DNA of 64,000 bases from a bacterium (GTDB lineage: Bacteria > Myxococcota_A > UBA9160 > UBA4427), in NCBI GenBank assembly GCA_024742285.1, contig JANSYR010000002.1:1-64000 (forward strand). Direction: 5' to 3'. A model generated the notes under the pieces. That model had not been told where the DNA came from. It was given only the letters and a program-made list of their open reading frames with translations, and searched no databases. Positions 1,339 through 19,199 of this stretch are shown here, one piece after another; the stretch's first letter is position 1, and every line of letters begins with the position of its first letter. The position numbers and the translations under genes were made by a program.

Positions 1339-1418
1339 CGGTTCGCACGCTCGGGGGCGGATCGGACGTTCGTTTCGATCCCGCGTTGAAACCCCCGATT
1401 GCAGCCTGAAAGGCTGCC

Positions 1419-1433
1419 CGGCAGAATCTGCCG
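1419..1433. promoter_or_regulatory. Palindromic enhancer-like site 1
   Basis: The perfect inverted repeat CGGCAGAATCTGCCG lies 37 bp upstream of a sigma-54 promoter. The same palindrome recurs upstream of two other sigma-54 promoters in this locus. A further small stem (GCAGCC/GGCTGC, 1401-1417) lies immediately upstream and may end fliS transcription. I infer a binding site for a Fis-type flagellar regulator. Confidence 0.65.
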
Positions 1434-1470
1434 CCTAACGTCCACAGCTTGCGCGAGAGCTGCGTTTCGT

Positions 1471-1486
1471 TGGCATCGTCCTTGCT
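1471..1486 (+). promoter_or_regulatory. Sigma-54 promoter for the pse operon
   Basis: TGGCATCGTCCTTGCT has GG and GC exactly 10 bases apart, matching the -24/-12 consensus. The predicted transcript start near 1497 sits at the proposed GTG of pseB, so either translation is nearly leaderless or the true start codon is downstream. Confidence 0.8.
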
Positions 1487-9180: not shown

Positions 9181-10118
9181 CGGGTCAGCGGCGACCAGGT
9201 ATGGCGGAGCGGACGCAGAGGGCGGAGCCCGTCCGAGGGGTCGGCCCGCCAGGACCGCTCCTCGCTCTCGACGTTCGCCGGCTCCTTTCGTGCCTGTCCC
9301 TCGGCCCGGAAGCCGGTCTGGACCCGCTCGATCGTTTCCTGGATGTCGTAGGGGAGCCAGCAATGACCGCTCTCGAACTCGTCGCCCTCGCCCTCGAGGT
9401 CGAGGTGGAATTCGATCATCGTGGTCGGATGCGCGTGGGCCGCGCGGAACATCACGCCCGGGTCGACCGTGTGATCCGACCAGCCCGCCCGGATCGAGAC
9501 GCCGTCGAAGACGGCGTCGAGGGCAGCGAGGCTGTCGATCGCGGCGAGGTTCGCCTCCGCCGCCGGGGCCGGGTAGCCCGACACGCAGTGGAGGAGGGTG
9601 AGGTCGCGCCCGCCCGCACGTTCGATCACACGGGCGGCGTGGGCGACCTCGTCGAGGGTCGCCATCCCGGTGGAGAGCACGAGGGGCAGGCCCGTGCGTG
9701 CGCAGGCTTCGAGCAGATCGTCCCAGAGAAGCTCGTAGGACGCGATCTTGAGGAAGTCGACGAAGGGGGACAGCGCGGTGACCGCGTCGAGATAGAAGGG
9801 CGTGCATCCGAAGGCGACGCCCCGTTCCCGACATCGGTGGGCGATCGGCGCCAGGAAACGTTCCGGGAGCTCCCAACGCCGGCGGGCGCGATGGGTCGCG
9901 CTCTGGCGGAGGATCTCCGGCGCAAAGAGCTCGTCGATCCGGAAGAGCTGGAACTTCACCCCGTCGCAGCCGATCTCGGCCGCACGGTCGACGAAGCGCA
10001 GGGCACGCTCGAGGTCGCACTGATGGTTGCTCGACACCTCGGCGACGAACCGGGGCGCGGTGGAGAGCGGGCTCGGGTCGGCAGAATCGTCCGTCCGGGT
10101 GTTTCGATCTGAATGCAT
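9177..10118 (-). CDS. pseI: Pseudaminic acid synthase PseI (NeuB barrel, SAF domain missing)
   Basis: PseI condenses 2,4-diacetamido-2,4,6-trideoxy-L-altrose with phosphoenolpyruvate. The NeuB TIM barrel is clear: FVAEVSSNHQCDLERAL, CDGVKFQLFRIDELFAPEIL, KIASYELLWDDLLEACARTG, LVLSTGMATLDEV, GWSDHT and a metal-site-like IEFHLDLEGEGDE. At about 313 aa the protein ends shortly after the barrel. The C-terminal antifreeze-like SAF domain of typical 340-350 aa synthases, which completes the partner's active site, is not visible. Start ATG 10118 (MHSDRN) or the in-frame ATG 10127 are both possible. It is the first gene of a minus-strand pair with pseG. Confidence 0.8.
   Translation of the reverse strand: MHSDRNTRTDDSADPSPLSTAPRFVAEVSSNHQCDLERALRFVDRAAEIGCDGVKFQLFRIDELFAPEILRQSATHRARRRWELPERFLAPIAHRCRERGVAFGCTPFYLDAVTALSPFVDFLKIASYELLWDDLLEACARTGLPLVLSTGMATLDEVAHAARVIERAGGRDLTLLHCVSGYPAPAAEANLAAIDSLAALDAVFDGVSIRAGWSDHTVDPGVMFRAAHAHPTTMIEFHLDLEGEGDEFESGHCWLPYDIQETIERVQTGFRAEGQARKEPANVESEERSWRADPSDGLRPLRPLRHTWSPLTR
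10079..10093. promoter_or_regulatory. Degenerate palindromic enhancer-like site 4
   Basis: CGGCAGAATCGTCCG matches the locus palindrome CGGCAGAATCTGCCG at 13 of 15 bases. It lies inside the 5' end of pseI, 169 bp upstream of the sigma-54 promoter at 10263. Being within coding sequence and imperfect, it is less certain than the other three sites. Confidence 0.35.
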
Positions 10119-10262: not shown

Positions 10263-10278
10263 TGGCATCGGGATTGCT
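10263..10278 (+). promoter_or_regulatory. Sigma-54 promoter for the fliD operon
   Basis: TGGCATCGGGATTGCT has perfect GG-N10-GC spacing. The predicted transcript start is near 10289, 46 bases before the ATG at 10335. It lies in the divergent interval between pseI and the unknown gene that precedes fliD. Confidence 0.75.
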
Positions 10279-10334: not shown

Positions 10335-10958
10335 ATGGACCTGATTCTCAATGGCGAACCGCAGCGACTCGACACGTCCGAGTGCGCGAACCTCGCGGAG
10401 CTCGTCACGATGGCCGAGACCGTGTCGACGAGCGGCGAGGCGTCGGTCGTCGTCGCGGTGGAGGTCGACGGGGAGGCGCTCTCGCCCGAGGCGCTCTCGG
10501 GCCTCGAACAGCATTCCCTCGACGGCGTCGGCCGGGTCGAGATCCTGCGCCGACCGACCCGGGCCGTGGCACGTTCCGTCCTCGAGCAGGGCGCGGACTA
10601 TTGCGGACAGGTCCAGTCGGCGATCGGCCAGTGCGTGGTCCACTTCCGAAGCGGCCGAAGCGACCTCGGCAACGAGCTCTTCGCGGACGTGACGGATTCG
10701 CTCACGGTCCTCACGAGTATCGCCAACTCGGTCGCCTCCATCCTCGACGAGGCGGCCCAGTCCCTCGCCGACGTCCAGCGCGAGATCTACCCCTGGCTCG
10801 AAGCGCTGGTGGAGGCGCAGACGGATGCGGATCCGCTCCGGATCGCCGACCTCCTCGAGTACGAGATCACCCCCCGCATCGGCAACTGGAGCGTCGTCAT
10901 GCGCGCAGCGGCTGCAAGCGTCGACCCGACCGAGGGGGATGCCCCGCTTTCGAGTTGA
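10335..10958 (+). CDS. Unknown flagellar-locus protein, possible beta-grasp N-domain
   Basis: I do not recognise this 207-aa protein. Residues 1-75 alternate strands and a helix in a way compatible with a small beta-grasp fold (start MDLILNGEPQRL; later a VEVDGEALSPEAL turn and a GRVEILRRP strand). Residues 80-195 are mainly helical and acidic, with one Cys-containing segment (GADYCGQVQSAIGQCVVHF). There is no signal peptide or membrane segment. ATG 10335 follows a GGGAGG about 11 bases upstream. It is the first gene after a sigma-54 promoter and directly precedes fliD, so a role as a filament chaperone or flagellar regulator is plausible but unproven. Confidence 0.75.
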   Translation: MDLILNGEPQRLDTSECANLAELVTMAETVSTSGEASVVVAVEVDGEALSPEALSGLEQHSLDGVGRVEILRRPTRAVARSVLEQGADYCGQVQSAIGQCVVHFRSGRSDLGNELFADVTDSLTVLTSIANSVASILDEAAQSLADVQREIYPWLEALVEAQTDADPLRIADLLEYEITPRIGNWSVVMRAAAASVDPTEGDAPLSS

Positions 10959-13008: not shown

Positions 13009-13216
13009 CGGCGTCGTGGGATCCGACGGACCCCGGGATTCCACTCAAGTCGGATCTTTTTCGCGACGATGTGAGGCCATGGACCCACGGTGGCTCCGCT
13101 GCCGGTGTCCTGCGCATCTCCGGGTGCGCTCTCGATGGAGACGCTGAGGGGTGTCTCCGCGAACCGGATCGCGTGGGCGTCTCGCGCCCGCCGTCGCGAC
13201 CGCGCGGGATGACCTC

Positions 13217-13609
13217 ATGTCCGAAGAAGCCGAGCCCAACGGGACGATCGTCGTGGTGGATCCCGATAGCGCTTCGCGCAACGATGCCGAAGACCTCGAG
13301 GACGAATTCGATCGCCAGGTGATCGCGATGGACTCGATGGACTTCGACACCGAGGCCTCCGAGGACGTCCTCGAGGCGTCCGTCTACATCATCTGCTGGA
13401 ACCTCGGTATCCGCGCCGGCGCCGATCTGATCGAGGAAGTGCGGTCGAACCCTCGCCTCGCGGACAAGAAGATCCTCGTCGCGCTCGACGAGCCGACGCG
13501 GACCAAGGCCCGGTGGGCGATGATGCTCGGCGCCGATGCGATCTGCTCACTTCCGTACGATCCGGAAGAGGTGGGCGCGCGGCTCGAAGCCCTCGAGCAG
13601 GCCGCCTGA
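13217..13609 (+). CDS. Degenerate CheY-like receiver protein
   Basis: This stand-alone, 130-aa receiver-domain protein aligns with CheY, but key residues are missing. The first strand reads TIVVVDPDSASRN (only part of the acidic pair). The phospho-acceptor strand reads YIICWNLGIRAGADLI, where CheY has SDWNMP, so a Cys replaces the phospho-aspartate. The last conserved strand reads ICSLPYDPEEV, with Leu replacing the conserved Lys before Pro. It therefore probably cannot be phosphorylated in the usual way and may act as a constitutive binding partner. ATG 13217 starts the domain directly; an in-frame GTG at 13151 would add a tail. The codon phases and alternating strand/helix pattern support a real gene. 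Confidence 0.75.
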   Translation: MSEEAEPNGTIVVVDPDSASRNDAEDLEDEFDRQVIAMDSMDFDTEASEDVLEASVYIICWNLGIRAGADLIEEVRSNPRLADKKILVALDEPTRTKARWAMMLGADAICSLPYDPEEVGARLEALEQAA

Positions 13610-13636
13610 CACGCGCGACGCCGTCGATCCAGAGGT

Positions 13637-13651
13637 CGGCAGAATCTGCCG
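13637..13651. promoter_or_regulatory. Palindromic enhancer-like site 2
   Basis: A second perfect copy of CGGCAGAATCTGCCG, 81 bp upstream of the sigma-54 promoter at 13733 and 27 bp after the degenerate receiver gene. Confidence 0.65.
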
Positions 13652-13732
13652 CGAGGCGGTTTCGATTCGCGAGCCCCCGATTCGTTCTGAAACGCGCGCC
13701 CCCGCTCTCGCAGCGGAGAGGGCGCCGCCAGC

Positions 13733-13748
13733 TGGCACGACCCTTGCG
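13733..13748 (+). promoter_or_regulatory. Sigma-54 promoter for the PilZ-regulator operon
   Basis: TGGCACGACCCTTGCG matches the full -24/-12 consensus with GG-N10-GC. The predicted start near 13759 leaves a leader of about 85 nt before ATG 13845. Confidence 0.85.
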
Positions 13749-13844: not shown

Positions 13845-14540
13845 ATGTGGGGGCGCACCAGCGAACGGGGCGATCTCGGCGACGGGGCCGGAGAGCGCGC
13901 GGCGAAGCCGAGTGGCGACTTCGCGTCGGGGCGCCGCGCCTACTACCGCGTCGAAGGCATCCTGCCCATCCGCCTGACGCCCCTCGCGCCCGAGGAGGTC
14001 GACGCCGCCCTCTTCGATCTCTCGATGCCGGATCCGCTGTGCGCCCCGGTCGGGGAGGGCGAGGAGGACACGCCGCTCATGGCCCGGCTCCGGCGCATCG
14101 AGGAGAAGCTCGATCTGCTGCTCGGGGTCGCCCCGATCGACGTGCCCCGACAGCTGAGCGGACGGGATCGTCGACCCCTCGTCTTCTCGGGGAGCGGTCT
14201 CGCCGTGGAGATCGACGGGACCTACGCGTCGGGCGACGCCTACCGCGTCGAGATCCTGCTGCCGCCCCCCTATGCGCGGACCCTACGCGCGGTCGGCTAC
14301 GCGGCGCGCGACGGACGGCCGGAGGTCGGACCCGACACACGGCAGCCGCTTCCGCTCGCGTTGACGCACATGGACGACGAAGATCGCGATGCCCTCGTCG
14401 CGTACAGCTACGACCTCCAGCGCTTCGCGCTTCGCGCGCGGACCGAAGGTGCCGGACGACGTGCGGGAGAGACGAAGCGCCTCACGGTCGTTCGCGGTCC
14501 GCACGGACCTGCGGAAATCCCGGGAGGGCCCTTCGCATGA
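13845..14540 (+). CDS. PilZ-domain protein of the flagellar locus
   Basis: This 231-aa protein is probably a cyclic-di-GMP receptor. PilZ hallmarks are split by an insert: GRRAYYRVEGILPIRL near residue 28 (RxxxR-type motif) and VFSGSGLAVEI near residue 114, in the place of the (D/N)xSxxG motif though the leading Asp/Asn is absent. Between them is a helical segment (LMARLRRIEEKLDLLLGV) found in several flagellar PilZ proteins. ATG 13845 is preceded by GGGGGA; the long open frame upstream crosses the promoter and is ignored. First gene of a sigma-54-driven operon, coupled by ATGA to the TPR gene. Confidence 0.75.
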   Translation: MWGRTSERGDLGDGAGERAAKPSGDFASGRRAYYRVEGILPIRLTPLAPEEVDAALFDLSMPDPLCAPVGEGEEDTPLMARLRRIEEKLDLLLGVAPIDVPRQLSGRDRRPLVFSGSGLAVEIDGTYASGDAYRVEILLPPPYARTLRAVGYAARDGRPEVGPDTRQPLPLALTHMDDEDRDALVAYSYDLQRFALRARTEGAGRRAGETKRLTVVRGPHGPAEIPGGPFA

Positions 14541-16582
14541 AGCGCCGATGGCGGACGATGCTCGGGCTGCTCCTGTCGGTCGCTTTCGCGAGTCCCGTCG
14601 CCGCCGCCGACGGCCTGCTGCCGAGTCCCTATGACATCCTGCGCGACCGGGGACTCGATACACCGCTTCTCGACGCCGTGCCCTACTGCGTCCCGCCCGG
14701 CCTCGATCCGGCGGTGGAGCCCGTCCTCGATCAGGCTGCGGCCGGGGAGTGGCGCGAAGCGCGGGAGGTCCTGGCCGACTGGGTGGTGGGGCTCGACGCG
14801 CCGGGGCTCGAGCTGGTCGCGCTCGACGCGGTGCTCGCGAGCCGGCAGGCCGAGGATCGAGCGGACCGGCTCGAGGTGGAAGACCACCTGCGCGCGATCC
14901 TGCGACGCTCGGACACCGACCGCGTGGAGCTCTGCATGCGGCTCGAGCTCGCGCGGATCCTGCTCACGATGGATCGTGATTCCGAGGCGGCGGCGCAGCT
15001 GACCCGCGCGAGCCGACGACTCGACGAGCAGACGAGCGCCAGCCGTCATACCGAGGAGATCGCCTTCTGGCGGGCGGAGATCCTCTATCGACGCGGAAGC
15101 GCCTTCGATGCGCATCTCGCCTACCGGAAGCTGAGTCGATCGAAGGATGCGCGGCTCGCGCTGGCGTCCCGTCTTCGCCTCACGGATCTCTCCTTCGACT
15201 CGGGGAAGATCGAGAAGGTGAGCGACGAGTACGAAGCGCTGCTGCCACGCGCCTCGGCCTATGGTGCCTCGGTCGCGGGCTGGGCCCGACGGGCGGCGGA
15301 AGCGGCCCTGGATGCCGGTGAGCACGGAAGGGCCCTGCGCTGGCTCGAGCGATTCCTCGAGAGCGGGCCGGACCGCAACGCGCGGGATGTCGTCGAGGTG
15401 CGCCTCGCCGATCTCGACGTCGTGTACGACGATCCGTTGCTTGCGAGAAAACGCCTTTCCGGTGTCTCCAACCGGCAGCGGTCGGATCCGCTGGGTGCGC
15501 TGGCGTCCGTTCGGGCCATCGATCTCGGCGTCGCGCCCGGCTCGCCGGATCAGCGTCTCGACGCGCTCCTTCGCACGCTCCGCGACCAGCGAGATGGCGT
15601 TCGGCGCTATGCGCTCGGGGTGCTCATGCGAGAGCTCCGGCATCGCGGTGACCTCGACGGCGCCCTGGCCGTGGCAACGCGGCTCGCCTACGAAGGCATC
15701 GACCCCGTCGTCACGCCGGACTACGCCGAGGGCCTCGACGCCATCCTGGCGGAGCTCGTCCGTCGACGGGTCGGCGGCGGGGACTGCAGCGAGCTCGTTC
15801 GCGCCCTCGGCGGTCGCTACGGGATCCTGATCGAGCGCGCCTCCCAGCCCGAGGCCTTCGCCCGGGTCGGGGAGTGCTTCGAAGAGATGGAGCTGCCCTG
15901 GCTCGCGGCGACGCTCTACCGAACGATCACGCGTCGCTTCGGAACCGCGGGGGCGGAACGGATCGCGCTCCCCCTGGCGCGCGCGTCCCTCTCCGTCGGC
16001 GAGATCACGCTCGCGCGGCGCGTCGCCAGTGCGGCTCTCGAGGAGCCGGACGACTCGGCGCACGAATGGCTTGCGATCCTCGCGGAGGCGGACTTCATCG
16101 AGGGGCGCTTCGCGGAGTCCGCCGAGGGCATCCGGAAGATTCTCGACCAGCCGGACCTCCGTCGGGACCGCGGACGGCTCGTCCGTCTCCTCGCGCTGAC
16201 CCTCGAGGCCAGCGGAAGTCGGAGCGACGCGCGTTTCGTCGGAGAACGGGTTCCGGGTTGGCTGGCCGAGGGCGATGTCGCGCCCGGCGCCCGGGCTGCG
16301 CTGATCGAGGCGGCGATCCTGGCCGCCCACGCCCATCGCAAGGCCGGACGGTCGAAGGAGGCGCAGCCTCTCTACCGCGTCGTCGACACCCACGCGGAAG
16401 CCGGGGCCCTGCGCTCGTCCGCGCGATTCTGGCTCGGGCTCGACGGTGCAGTCGACGGCGAGGGCGCACCGGCCTGGGGCGAGGACCCGAACGTCGCGCT
16501 CGGACCACCCTGGGCGCGCTACGCCACCTTCGAAGAGCGCGTCGGCCCTCTGTGGAAGGCCTACGGCCGGAGCGTCCAGTGA
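14537..16582 (+). CDS. Exported TPR-repeat protein
   Basis: The 681-aa protein starts with a signal peptide (MKRRWRTMLGLLLSVAFA, cleavage likely after the following SPVAAA) and is then almost entirely helical, with repeated helix pairs of TPR type. Examples are AEILYRRGSAFDAHLAYRKL and AAEAALDAGEHGRALRWLER. It is probably periplasmic or outer-membrane-associated, serving as a scaffold. A Cys pair (VPYC near residue 54; GGGDCSEL near 417) could form a disulfide. It is coupled by ATGA to the PilZ gene upstream. A motility-linked assembly role is inferred only from the operon. I do not recognise an exact family. Confidence 0.75.
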   Translation: MKRRWRTMLGLLLSVAFASPVAAADGLLPSPYDILRDRGLDTPLLDAVPYCVPPGLDPAVEPVLDQAAAGEWREAREVLADWVVGLDAPGLELVALDAVLASRQAEDRADRLEVEDHLRAILRRSDTDRVELCMRLELARILLTMDRDSEAAAQLTRASRRLDEQTSASRHTEEIAFWRAEILYRRGSAFDAHLAYRKLSRSKDARLALASRLRLTDLSFDSGKIEKVSDEYEALLPRASAYGASVAGWARRAAEAALDAGEHGRALRWLERFLESGPDRNARDVVEVRLADLDVVYDDPLLARKRLSGVSNRQRSDPLGALASVRAIDLGVAPGSPDQRLDALLRTLRDQRDGVRRYALGVLMRELRHRGDLDGALAVATRLAYEGIDPVVTPDYAEGLDAILAELVRRRVGGGDCSELVRALGGRYGILIERASQPEAFARVGECFEEMELPWLAATLYRTITRRFGTAGAERIALPLARASLSVGEITLARRVASAALEEPDDSAHEWLAILAEADFIEGRFAESAEGIRKILDQPDLRRDRGRLVRLLALTLEASGSRSDARFVGERVPGWLAEGDVAPGARAALIEAAILAAHAHRKAGRSKEAQPLYRVVDTHAEAGALRSSARFWLGLDGAVDGEGAPAWGEDPNVALGPPWARYATFEERVGPLWKAYGRSVQ

Positions 16583-16604
16583 TCGCACCGGGAAAGGCGC
16601 CCTC

Positions 16605-17339
16605 GTGAGGCCGACGACGAGACACGCGAACGAAGACTGCGCGCCGTCGGCGCGGACTACGCTCACGCAGGCCCTCGCGAGTGAGAGCCGCGGTGCCCTC
16701 GCGCGCGTCGAGCTCGCCGCGAGCGAGCTCGAACGAAGCGGGCTCGCGCCTGCGCTCGCCGCGCGGGTCTCGACGATTCGTGCGGCCGTCGCCGAGCTCG
16801 ATGGCCTGCTCGGCAAGATCGATCTCCTTTCCGACCCCGAGCGCGTGCCGGCCGTCGCGAAGATCGACTTCGCGCGCGTCGCGAGTGCCGTCGTCGAACG
16901 ACTCCGACCGGGCCTGCGGGCACGCGGGGTCGAGGTCGTCTGGGGTGGGCCGGAAGAACACGCGGAGGGGCTCGAGGTCGCGGTACCGCGGCCCACCGTC
17001 GAGCTCCTCAGTGTCGGTCTCGTACGTCTCGTCGTGGGGGCCGTGGCGCCCCAGGGCGGGGCGGACGATCTCGGGACCGCTCCCGGCACCGTCGTTCTCG
17101 CCGCGACGCGAAGGGGCGACGACGTCTGTCTCGTCGCGCGGTGTGAGAGAAAAGAAGCCTCTCCGCGATTCGATCGGACGGCGCGGCTCGAGCTCGAGGT
17201 CGTGTTGGCGGAGTGGTCGGGGGCCTTCCTGGTCGGGGACGACGTCCGTCGGGTCGAGGTGGGGTTCGCGCTGCCGGCCAGCGGCGGCGATGCAATCGAT
17301 ACCATCGACGGCGGCGCGTCGGAGCGCGGTTCGATATGA
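16605..17339 (+). CDS. Degenerate sensor kinase-like protein
   Basis: This 244-aa cytoplasmic protein resembles the core of a small histidine kinase but lacks catalytic features. The dimerisation helix reads ALASESRGALARVELAASEL, where active kinases have an H-E-x-x-N/R-P motif; Ser stands at the His position. The region resembling the ATP-binding lid (VPRPTVELLSVGLVRLVVGA) lacks the conserved Asn, and no G1/G2 glycine boxes follow. FleS-type kinases usually occupy this position beside the FleR/FlrC regulator. GTG 16605 is the chosen start, 22 bp after the TPR gene. Its stop overlaps the next gene (ATGA). The kinase-like reading is inference from pattern and context. Confidence 0.6.
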   Translation: MRPTTRHANEDCAPSARTTLTQALASESRGALARVELAASELERSGLAPALAARVSTIRAAVAELDGLLGKIDLLSDPERVPAVAKIDFARVASAVVERLRPGLRARGVEVVWGGPEEHAEGLEVAVPRPTVELLSVGLVRLVVGAVAPQGGADDLGTAPGTVVLAATRRGDDVCLVARCERKEASPRFDRTARLELEVVLAEWSGAFLVGDDVRRVEVGFALPASGGDAIDTIDGGASERGSI

Positions 17340-18568
17340 GGCTCGGTCTGGACTTCGATGGAGACGTCCTCGCGGGCCGCTCGCCGCGGGTGGGACTCGT
17401 GGTGGCTCATCCGGGGTGGAGACGGGATCTCGAACGGGCGTTCGTCTCGGCCGGCTGCCGGGTCGTCGAGCTCGGGCACGCGGAGGCCCTCCGGTGCCGA
17501 ACGGGAATCGACGTTCTCGTGAGCGATGCCGAGGCCGCACCGCGAGTCCTGGGGATCGACCGGTCCGTGAAGGACCGCCTCGCGGTGTGGGCCCCGGTGG
17601 ACGACGGGACGCCGAGCGCGTCGTCCGCGGAGGCGTGGGAGCTGCTTCCGATGCCCTTCTCGGTCGCCGATCTCGAGCGGAGCCTCGAACGGGTGCTCGT
17701 TCCGGCGCGCGCCGCCGTCGGCGTCCTCGACCCCGTGCTGGTCTCTCGCGATCCCGGTGTCGAGGCGACGCTCCTGCGCGCTCGCCGACTCGCCGAGCGC
17801 GATCTCGATCTCGTCGTCGAAGGGGAGCTCGGTGTGGGCCGGCGGGCGCTCGCGCGAGCGACCCACGATTGGAGCCCGCGAGCGGGCGGCCCCTTCGTTC
17901 CCCTCGACCGCGTCGAGCTCGCGGCCGCCGAAGCCGGTGAGGCGGTCGACCTGATCGAGCAGGCCTGGTCGGAAGTGGGCGAGGGGACGCTCCTCGCGAT
18001 CGAGCCGTCCGAGTGGACCACGCCCGCGCAACGCGCACTCGCCAGCATGCTTCGGCGCGGGAAGGGCGCGCGCGTCGTCACGATCGTCTCGCAGCCGCTG
18101 GACGCCGCCGTCGATCGAGGTCGTCTCGCACGGGAGCTGGCGGATCGGCTGGACGTCTCGCGCGTCCGGTTGCCCGCGCTGCGAGCCCGTCCTGCGGATC
18201 ATCGAGCGCTCTGCGAGGCGATCGCCCGACGGGTCGCGCGGCGGCTGGGGTGCGAGACGCCGATCCTCGACGACGCGACGATCACGGCCTGGGCGGAGGA
18301 GGGCTTCCCCGGGAACCTGCTCGGGATCGAGAGTCGCGTGCGCGCGGCGATGCTCCAGGAAGAGGTCGCCGCGGCGGTGCCGGGGCCTGCGTTGGCGGTC
18401 CGGCGTCACGTCGACGAGACCGAGTCGCTCGATCTCAAGCGACTCGAACGCGACACGATCGTCCGGGCCCTCGCCCATTGGCAGGGCAATCGGACCCGTG
18501 CATCCGAGTCGCTCGGGATCAGCGTGCGGACGCTGCGGAACAAGATCCGCGAATACGGCCTGCGCTAG
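17336..18568 (+). CDS. Degenerate NtrC/FlrC-type regulator with intact Fis helix-turn-helix
   Basis: This 410-aa protein has the three-part layout of sigma-54 activators. Residues 18-120 form a receiver-like domain with Asp64 retained (VLVSDAEAAP) but no N-terminal acidic pair and Met in place of the conserved Lys (LPMPF). Residues 158-345 resemble the AAA+ domain, but Walker A reads GELGVGRRAL (Arg for Lys), the GAFTGA loop region is deleted, and Walker B reads GTLLAIEP. Residues 371-408 are a well-preserved Fis helix-turn-helix (SLGISVRTLRNKIREYGL), as in FlbD/FlrC. It should bind DNA but not activate sigma-54 alone. It is the last gene of its operon, coupled to the degenerate kinase. Confidence 0.8.
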   Translation: MRLGLDFDGDVLAGRSPRVGLVVAHPGWRRDLERAFVSAGCRVVELGHAEALRCRTGIDVLVSDAEAAPRVLGIDRSVKDRLAVWAPVDDGTPSASSAEAWELLPMPFSVADLERSLERVLVPARAAVGVLDPVLVSRDPGVEATLLRARRLAERDLDLVVEGELGVGRRALARATHDWSPRAGGPFVPLDRVELAAAEAGEAVDLIEQAWSEVGEGTLLAIEPSEWTTPAQRALASMLRRGKGARVVTIVSQPLDAAVDRGRLARELADRLDVSRVRLPALRARPADHRALCEAIARRVARRLGCETPILDDATITAWAEEGFPGNLLGIESRVRAAMLQEEVAAAVPGPALAVRRHVDETESLDLKRLERDTIVRALAHWQGNRTRASESLGISVRTLRNKIREYGLR

Positions 18569-18597
18569 TCGCGCGAGGGACCGTCGCCGACGCGGCC

Positions 18598-18612
18598 CGG
18601 CAGATTCTGCCG
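18598..18612. promoter_or_regulatory. Palindromic enhancer-like site 3
   Basis: CGGCAGATTCTGCCG is a perfect palindrome differing by one central base from sites 1 and 2. It begins 30 bp after the Fis-type regulator gene and 125 bp upstream of the flgB sigma-54 promoter. Confidence 0.65.
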
Positions 18613-18737
18613 CCCTCCGGACGGTGTGGTTTTTCAACCTGCACGGTCCCCCCGGTTCCGCCTTCTCGCCTGCAATCCGCCGCCCGAGCTTCGCCCTGCG
18701 AAACGCCCGTGAGGCGCGCCTGGCTCGTTTTCGAAGG

Positions 18738-18753
18738 TGGCACGGCGCTTGCT
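18738..18753 (+). promoter_or_regulatory. Sigma-54 promoter for the flgB-flgE operon
   Basis: TGGCACGGCGCTTGCT is a textbook -24/-12 element (GG-N10-GC). The predicted start near 18764 gives a leader of about 55 nt to flgB. Eleven flagellar genes follow with short gaps or overlaps. Confidence 0.87.
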
Positions 18754-18818: not shown

Positions 18819-19199
18819 ATGCCGAGTTTCGGGCCGGAAGCGATGAACGCGCTGCAGACCGCCATGCGCTTCCGCATCAAGCGGGAGAGCCTGATCGCGG
18901 GCAACATCGCGAACGCCGACACGCCGGGCTACCGCCGGCGCGACATCTCCTTCGACGGCGTCCTCTCCTCGACCCGGTCGCGCATGGAACGCACCCACCC
19001 GGGCCACATGGCTCCGGGCGGGACGTCCTCGAACCCGACGGTCGAGCTCGGCCCCCGCGGCACGCGCCCCGACAAGAACGGCGTCGACCTCGACCAGGAG
19101 CTCGTGACCGCCCACCGCAACGCGGGCGCCTTCATCGACCAGGCGAACGTGCTCGCCCGTCTCTCCACCCTCGTCCGCACGGCCATCGGCCAGTCCTGA
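18819..19199 (+). CDS. flgB: Flagellar proximal rod protein FlgB
   Basis: FlgB is a rod subunit of the basal body, exported into the periplasm. The 126-aa protein has the rod-family N-terminal motif (LIAGNIANADTPGYRRRDISF) with the ANxxTPGY signature, and a C-terminal helix (ALARLSTLVRTAIGQ-type: VLARLSTLVRTAIGQS). The start ATG 18819 has a GAGAGGGAAG Shine-Dalgarno. It opens the sigma-54-driven basal-body operon and is followed 35 bp later by flgC, the universal order. The loop between the helices carries the DLDQELV segment typical of FlgB. Confidence 0.93.
   Translation: MPSFGPEAMNALQTAMRFRIKRESLIAGNIANADTPGYRRRDISFDGVLSSTRSRMERTHPGHMAPGGTSSNPTVELGPRGTRPDKNGVDLDQELVTAHRNAGAFIDQANVLARLSTLVRTAIGQS

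Follow-up and report, generated by a model that had tools for sequence, protein, structure and literature searches.

A flgB-linked flagellar bEBP with a predicted dead AAA+ core and an intact Fis domain: a candidate DNA-bound helper of a second activator

Introduction

What can a homologue of the flagellar sigma-54 activators still do at its promoters once it has lost the GAFTGA loop and the Walker lysine, and kept its DNA-binding domain? The question is raised by a gene located directly upstream of flgB in a bacterium of the Myxococcota_A (UBA9160; UBA4427; assembly GCA_024742285.1), on the 64,000-nucleotide stretch that was analysed (contig JANSYR010000002.1, positions 1 to 64,000 of the forward strand), referred to below as the window. 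The original prediction held that its product, here named REG, binds palindromes and does not remodel sigma-54 polymerase, and offered three roles for it: a repressor, an anchor, or the partner of an activator encoded elsewhere. The evidence considered here consists of sequences, mostly from draft genomes; the features are collected in Table 1.

Table 1. Features of the REG locus, of the other sigma-54 promoters in the window, and of PARTNER.
Feature	Position	Strand	Basis or remark
m2, pseB-like gene promoter	1398..1412	+	strong; 21 bp from m1
m1, pseB-like gene promoter	1418..1434	+	palindrome search
Sigma-54 promoter before pseB-like gene	1471..1486	+	-24/-12 scan
m1-like, promoter of ORF 10335-10958	10078..10094	+	2 mismatches
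m2-like, promoter of ORF 10335-10958	10101..10115	+	weak, 12.8 bits; 22 bp from m1
Sigma-54 promoter before ORF 10335-10958	10263..10278	+	-24/-12 scan
m1, REG operon promoter	13636..13652	+	palindrome search
m2-like, REG operon promoter	13679..13693	+	weak, 11.0 bits; 42 bp from m1
Sigma-54 promoter, TPR-kinase-REG operon	13733..13748	+	-24/-12 scan
TPR-like gene, REG operon	14537..16582	+	conserved synteny
Kinase-like gene before REG	16446..17339	+	start uncertain, homology from ~residue 56; no phospho-His; stop overlaps REG start
REG, flgB-linked FlbD/FlrC-type bEBP	17336..18568	+	410 aa; degenerate receiver, predicted ATPase-dead AAA+, intact Fis HTH
Walker A remnant GELGVGRR	17822..17845	+	motif reading; K169 replaced by R
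L1/GAFTGA deletion region, junction approximate	17924..17956	+	GAFTGA columns gapped or replaced in alignment
Walker B remnant GTLLAIEP	17984..18007	+	Asp lost (I222), Glu kept
R271, counterpart of PspF R168 (trans Arg finger)	18146..18148	+	present in 13/13 dead orthologues
L329, sensor II Arg lost	18320..18322	+	motif reading
Fis-type HTH	18428..18565	+	100% identity with two nearest orthologues; dN/dS ~0.02
m1, flgB promoter	18597..18613	+	palindrome search
m2, flgB promoter	18631..18645	+	strong; m1 and m2 centres 33 bp apart
Sigma-54 promoter TGGCACGGCGCTTGCT before flgB	18738..18753	+	-24/-12 scan
flgB, first gene of flgB-flgC-fliE-fliF-fliG operon	18819..19199	+	synteny
PARTNER (another contig)	G000:C21:23333-24751		motA - motB - kinase-like - PARTNER - fliL - fliM - fliN - flhB - flhA - flhF - flhG

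Domain organization of REG

The C-terminal Fis HTH of REG, which carries the motif GISVRTLRNK, is recognized by Pfam (HTH_8, 8e-11), the AAA+ domain giving a partial match to Sigma54_activat (profile positions 2-59 of 168); the top NCBIfam model is FlbD, with a score far below the FlbD cut-off. Of the columns that are near-invariant in 38 intact orthologues, REG (P0001) keeps 19 of 21 within the HTH, 37 of 94 within the AAA+ domain and 3 of 10 within the receiver; the degeneracy of the receiver adds to the original prediction. The Walker A reading GELGVGRR, the loss of GAFTGA, the altered sensor II and the intact Fis HTH, all noted earlier for this protein, are borne out by alignment and motif reading. 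The sensor I position is occupied by S, and among the Walker A Lys, the Walker B Asp-Glu pair, sensor I and sensor II, just the Walker B Glu is retained. The AAA+ layout that had been proposed was also recovered by structure prediction: AlphaFold2 returned a confident AAA+ fold (pLDDT 88-97 for most ten-residue blocks of residues 140-340), the closest structures being FleQ and FlrC (Z ~23, rmsd 2.1-2.3 A, ~212 of 245-252 residues). REG is confirmed, at the level of motifs and model, as a dead AAA+ core on an intact DNA-binding HTH, with a predicted loss of both ATPase activity and sigma-54 activation.

In relatives from the same order, REG is found in the arrangement TPR - kinase-like - REG - flgB - flgC - fliE - fliF - fliG, and in the window its start overlaps the stop of the upstream gene (ATGA). 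The slot directly 5' of flgB-flgC-fliE-fliF-fliG is occupied by REG at 17 loci of the order, REG-flgB-flgC being found also at ~60 loci of other phyla, and both slot and HTH identify REG as the flgB-linked FlbD/FlrC-type orthologue. The kinase-like gene before REG is a conserved, predicted pseudo-kinase: the phospho-histidine is absent from every member read in the order, including those that accompany an intact REG. The kinase-like genes of the window and of loci L058-L070 and L215 keep a HisKA-like helical hairpin, ALARVELAASEL. In the order, a receiver-like protein of 152 aa (window 13151-13609) is conserved 5' of the TPR gene.

Evolutionary history and constraint

Thirteen dead and 6 intact REG orthologues were scored in the order, the fragments from G041, G072 and G075 being left unscored. 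Families f3, f4 and f5 and one genus of f6 carry an intact REG, whereas a dead one is found in f1, in genus g17 of f6 and in f7. On a tree of FlgB, FlgC, FliE, FliF, FliG and FliI this distribution requires three state changes, which are read as three losses because the outgroup REGs are intact; the predicted loss of the ATPase motor maps to three lineages, and would have taken place at least three separate times. No dead REG was found among ~75 homologues from other phyla, whose L1 loop, in syntenic orthologues as well, is GAFTGA or a near variant, and the two flgB-linked REGs readable in the same class and phylum (G211 and G245) are both intact. The claim that REG is without GAFTGA stands when close homologues are considered, the loop being missing from 4 of 4 same-genus orthologues; its presence in distant orthologues of the same syntenic slot dates the loss and does not contradict the reading of REG. 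Among the 13 dead orthologues, the cis residues are retained in 4 (Walker A K), 1 (Walker B Asp) or none (L1 Phe, sensor I, glutamate-switch Asn), and the trans Arg fingers in 13 (R168) and 7 (R162).

Sequencing error or a pseudogene was rejected, since identical losses are found in five same-genus orthologues, none of which contains a stop codon. Between this genome and its nearest relative, dN/dS amounts to 0.02 for the HTH, 0.25 for the AAA+ domain and 0.40 for the receiver; REG does not behave as a decaying pseudogene, because its HTH has hardly changed and its AAA+ domain is still constrained.

A second flagellar activator

That the genome encodes no other bEBP was rejected, ~21 others being present, among them PARTNER, the one whose neighbourhood was read. 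The intact flagellar activator that had been predicted to be encoded elsewhere was found by this genome search: PARTNER lies in a motAB-fliLMN-flhBA operon and has every ATPase and L1 residue. The arrangement of its locus is the same in all flagellated relatives whose contigs reach it, with complete motifs where these could be read. PARTNER is present in 11 of the 13 genomes with a dead REG, those without a match being G004 and G016, where the flhA contig ends at the locus. The HTH of PARTNER was detected in 25 of the 80 order genomes, against 0 of ~299 from the rest of the phylum, where a strongly diverged orthologue could have escaped the search. A second bEBP with the HTH of REG was not found in this genome at E<=1e-7. 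The genome also encodes a second GAFTGA-less bEBP-like protein (L022, G000:C2:550381-553704) of 353 aa with a Walker-like GASGSGRKQVARAIHQW.

REG and flhA are jointly absent from G001, G002, G005 and G006. In three genomes without flhA and REG, i.e. G002 (L227), G006 (L228) and G019 (L219), motA and/or motB - kinase-like - PARTNER is kept, followed in G002 and G006 by a flgF/flgG-like gene. These loci may represent either a flagellar relic or reuse for another role, and the persistence of PARTNER in them argues that it is not REG-dependent for all of its roles.

Sigma-54 promoters and paired operators

Four -24/-12 sites were found in the window with a weight matrix built from the textbook consensus, each of them 5' of a flagellar or glycosylation-type unit. 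A near-perfect -24/-12 element is present in every REG-flgB gap examined, whether REG is intact or dead. Loss of the sigma-54 system was rejected, with an rpoN match in 9 of 9 genomes tested. Upstream of the flagellar sigma-54 promoters lie two palindromes, m1 (CGGCAGAnTCTGCCG) and m2 (TTTCAGnCTGAAA). The palindromes invoked by the original prediction proved to be real, perfect m1 occurring three times in the 6.5-Mb genome, in all cases 5' of a sigma-54 site of the window. This operator, which we take to resemble the FlbD ftr consensus, is positioned in the window 45-177 bp upstream of -24.

The models of m1 and m2 were trained on flgB gaps alone, and spacing was assessed by fixing m1 and seeking the best m2 at 17-60 bp on either side. 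A significant m2 was obtained at 30 of 33 promoters with m1, and the centre-to-centre spacing is in helical phase (21, 31.5 or 42 bp, +/-1.5 bp) at 29 of these 30, with 27% expected. Outside flgB, 14 of 14 promoters are in phase, a count that leaves out the flgB promoters L215, L216 and L218 and in which promoters from related genomes are not independent samples. The promoters of this single genome use 2, 3 and 4 helical turns between m1 and m2, and phased pairs occur also in species with an intact activator REG.

At p<0.05, m1 is found in 12 of 44 outgroup flgB gaps, an enrichment that is not seen for m2 (4 of 44). Because m1, unlike m2, is enriched at outgroup REG flgB gaps, m1 is assigned to REG; from this enrichment we infer that REG binds m1, leaving m2 to PARTNER by elimination. 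At two promoters of G053, m1 was not detected despite the presence of REG. The REG operon promoter of G053 (L067, 18081) lacks m1 and instead displays a pair of m2-type palindromes separated by 23 bp, and the HTH of the G053 REG has diverged.

Proposed role of REG

We put a probability of roughly 0.55 on REG being a DNA-bound anchor or co-activator subunit for PARTNER. REG, without ATP hydrolysis or sigma-54 contact, would still bind its ancestral operator m1 upstream of flagellar promoters, and PARTNER would bind m2 on the same DNA face, 2-4 helical turns off, supplying the ATPase and the GAFTGA loop. REG would either anchor PARTNER or enter a mixed AAA+ ring and donate its Arg finger, and flagellar transcription would in this way be promoted or timed. 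Both the physical contact between the two proteins and the positive effect of REG are inferred.

Arg fingers are known to serve a neighbouring subunit: R162 and R168 of PspF act in trans, on the neighbour's nucleotide (PMC12054792), and R299 of NtrC1 does likewise (PMC7175178). The loss of the cis residues, taken together with the retention of R168 and the phased operators, points towards a mixed complex or cooperative anchoring; the last two are suggestive of a hetero-oligomer of REG and PARTNER, and R168 could instead have been kept for structural reasons. More specifically, REG might be a pseudo-ATPase subunit that contributes DNA grip and a trans Arg finger to a mixed ring with the order-specific intact paralogue, a division of labour that would have arisen three times; we regard this version as tentative and rather doubtful.

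Among the three roles offered for REG, that of anchor or partner fits best, because the operators stand well upstream of -24, off the promoter and phased with a second operator. The main rival, which we consider unlikely, is a repressor or anti-activator: REG on m1 would check PARTNER by position competition or ring poisoning, so that flagellar operons are restrained or shut down. A dead subunit with the assembly-competent fold seen in the model (FleQ/FlrC Z ~23) could poison hexamers, and the fact that REG is transcribed from a sigma-54 promoter that itself carries m1 is consistent with feedback, but m1 occupies a typical enhancer position, which is not occluding, and its phased pairing with m2 in species with an intact REG points to a layout built for activation.

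It is distinctly improbable that REG is a relic, made redundant when PARTNER arose and now being lost, with DNA binding kept to avoid harm. Distant pairs within the genus do show near-neutral evolution of the receiver (dN/dS up to ~1), and the kinase-like gene is dead as well; however, over the same-genus pairs dN/dS stays at ~0-0.12 for the HTH and 0.25-0.57 for the AAA+ domain (below 0.6), the five reading frames are uninterrupted, and dead REG persists in 13 genomes of three lineages. More improbable still is that REG has turned into a sigma-70-type regulator, like the GAFTGA-less NtrC proteins of Rhodobacter capsulatus and Caulobacter, which act at sigma-70 promoters (PMC10274813): the perfect m1 sites all accompany sigma-54 promoters, which are kept together with sigma-54 itself, and REG is without the Walker and sensor residues, whereas R. 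capsulatus NtrC reportedly needs ATP binding. Direct activation of sigma-54 by an unusual route, for which only the continued presence of REG at sigma-54 promoters speaks, is scarcely credible with nearly all ATPase cis residues altered and the L1 loop missing throughout the same-genus clade.

The locus may be of wider use. One syntenic slot holds a graded natural set of proteins, intact at one end and fully dead at the other, with promoters and operators preserved. Such a set could serve to test which of the operator grip, the Arg finger and the L1 loop a bEBP subunit must have if it is to help transcription, and could show how AAA+ subunits turn into pseudo-enzymes.

Comparison with known systems

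Mixed bEBP rings are known from few cases. HrpR/HrpS and VnfA resemble the proposed arrangement in that paralogous bEBPs form mixed complexes, but an ATPase-dead member is not described for them in the available part of the source (PMC9542535). GAFTGA-less NtrC of R. capsulatus and Caulobacter shares with REG the deletion of the L1 loop (PMC10274813), but acts at sigma-70 promoters, whereas the candidate sites of REG are at sigma-54 promoters. FlbD of Caulobacter and FlrC of Vibrio are flagellar bEBPs of the type to which REG belongs by its syntenic position next to flgB and by its HTH, and the AAA+ fold of REG is that of FlrC and FleQ; FlbD, however, keeps GAFTGA (PMC10274813) and FlrC has a working ATPase, both of which REG is predicted to have lost.

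The nearest precedent is the FleQ/FleT pair of Rhodobacter (Cereibacter) sphaeroides, in which two flagellar bEBPs cooperate at sigma-54 flagellar promoters (PMC7277832, PMC11999139), one of them missing a domain function; the genome studied here likewise holds, in PARTNER, an intact second flagellar bEBP. The roles are nevertheless divided the other way round: the helper FleT is without a DNA-binding domain and keeps its AAA+ domain (PMC11999139), whereas the putative helper REG would keep DNA binding and has a dead AAA+ core, and two distinct operators are found here.
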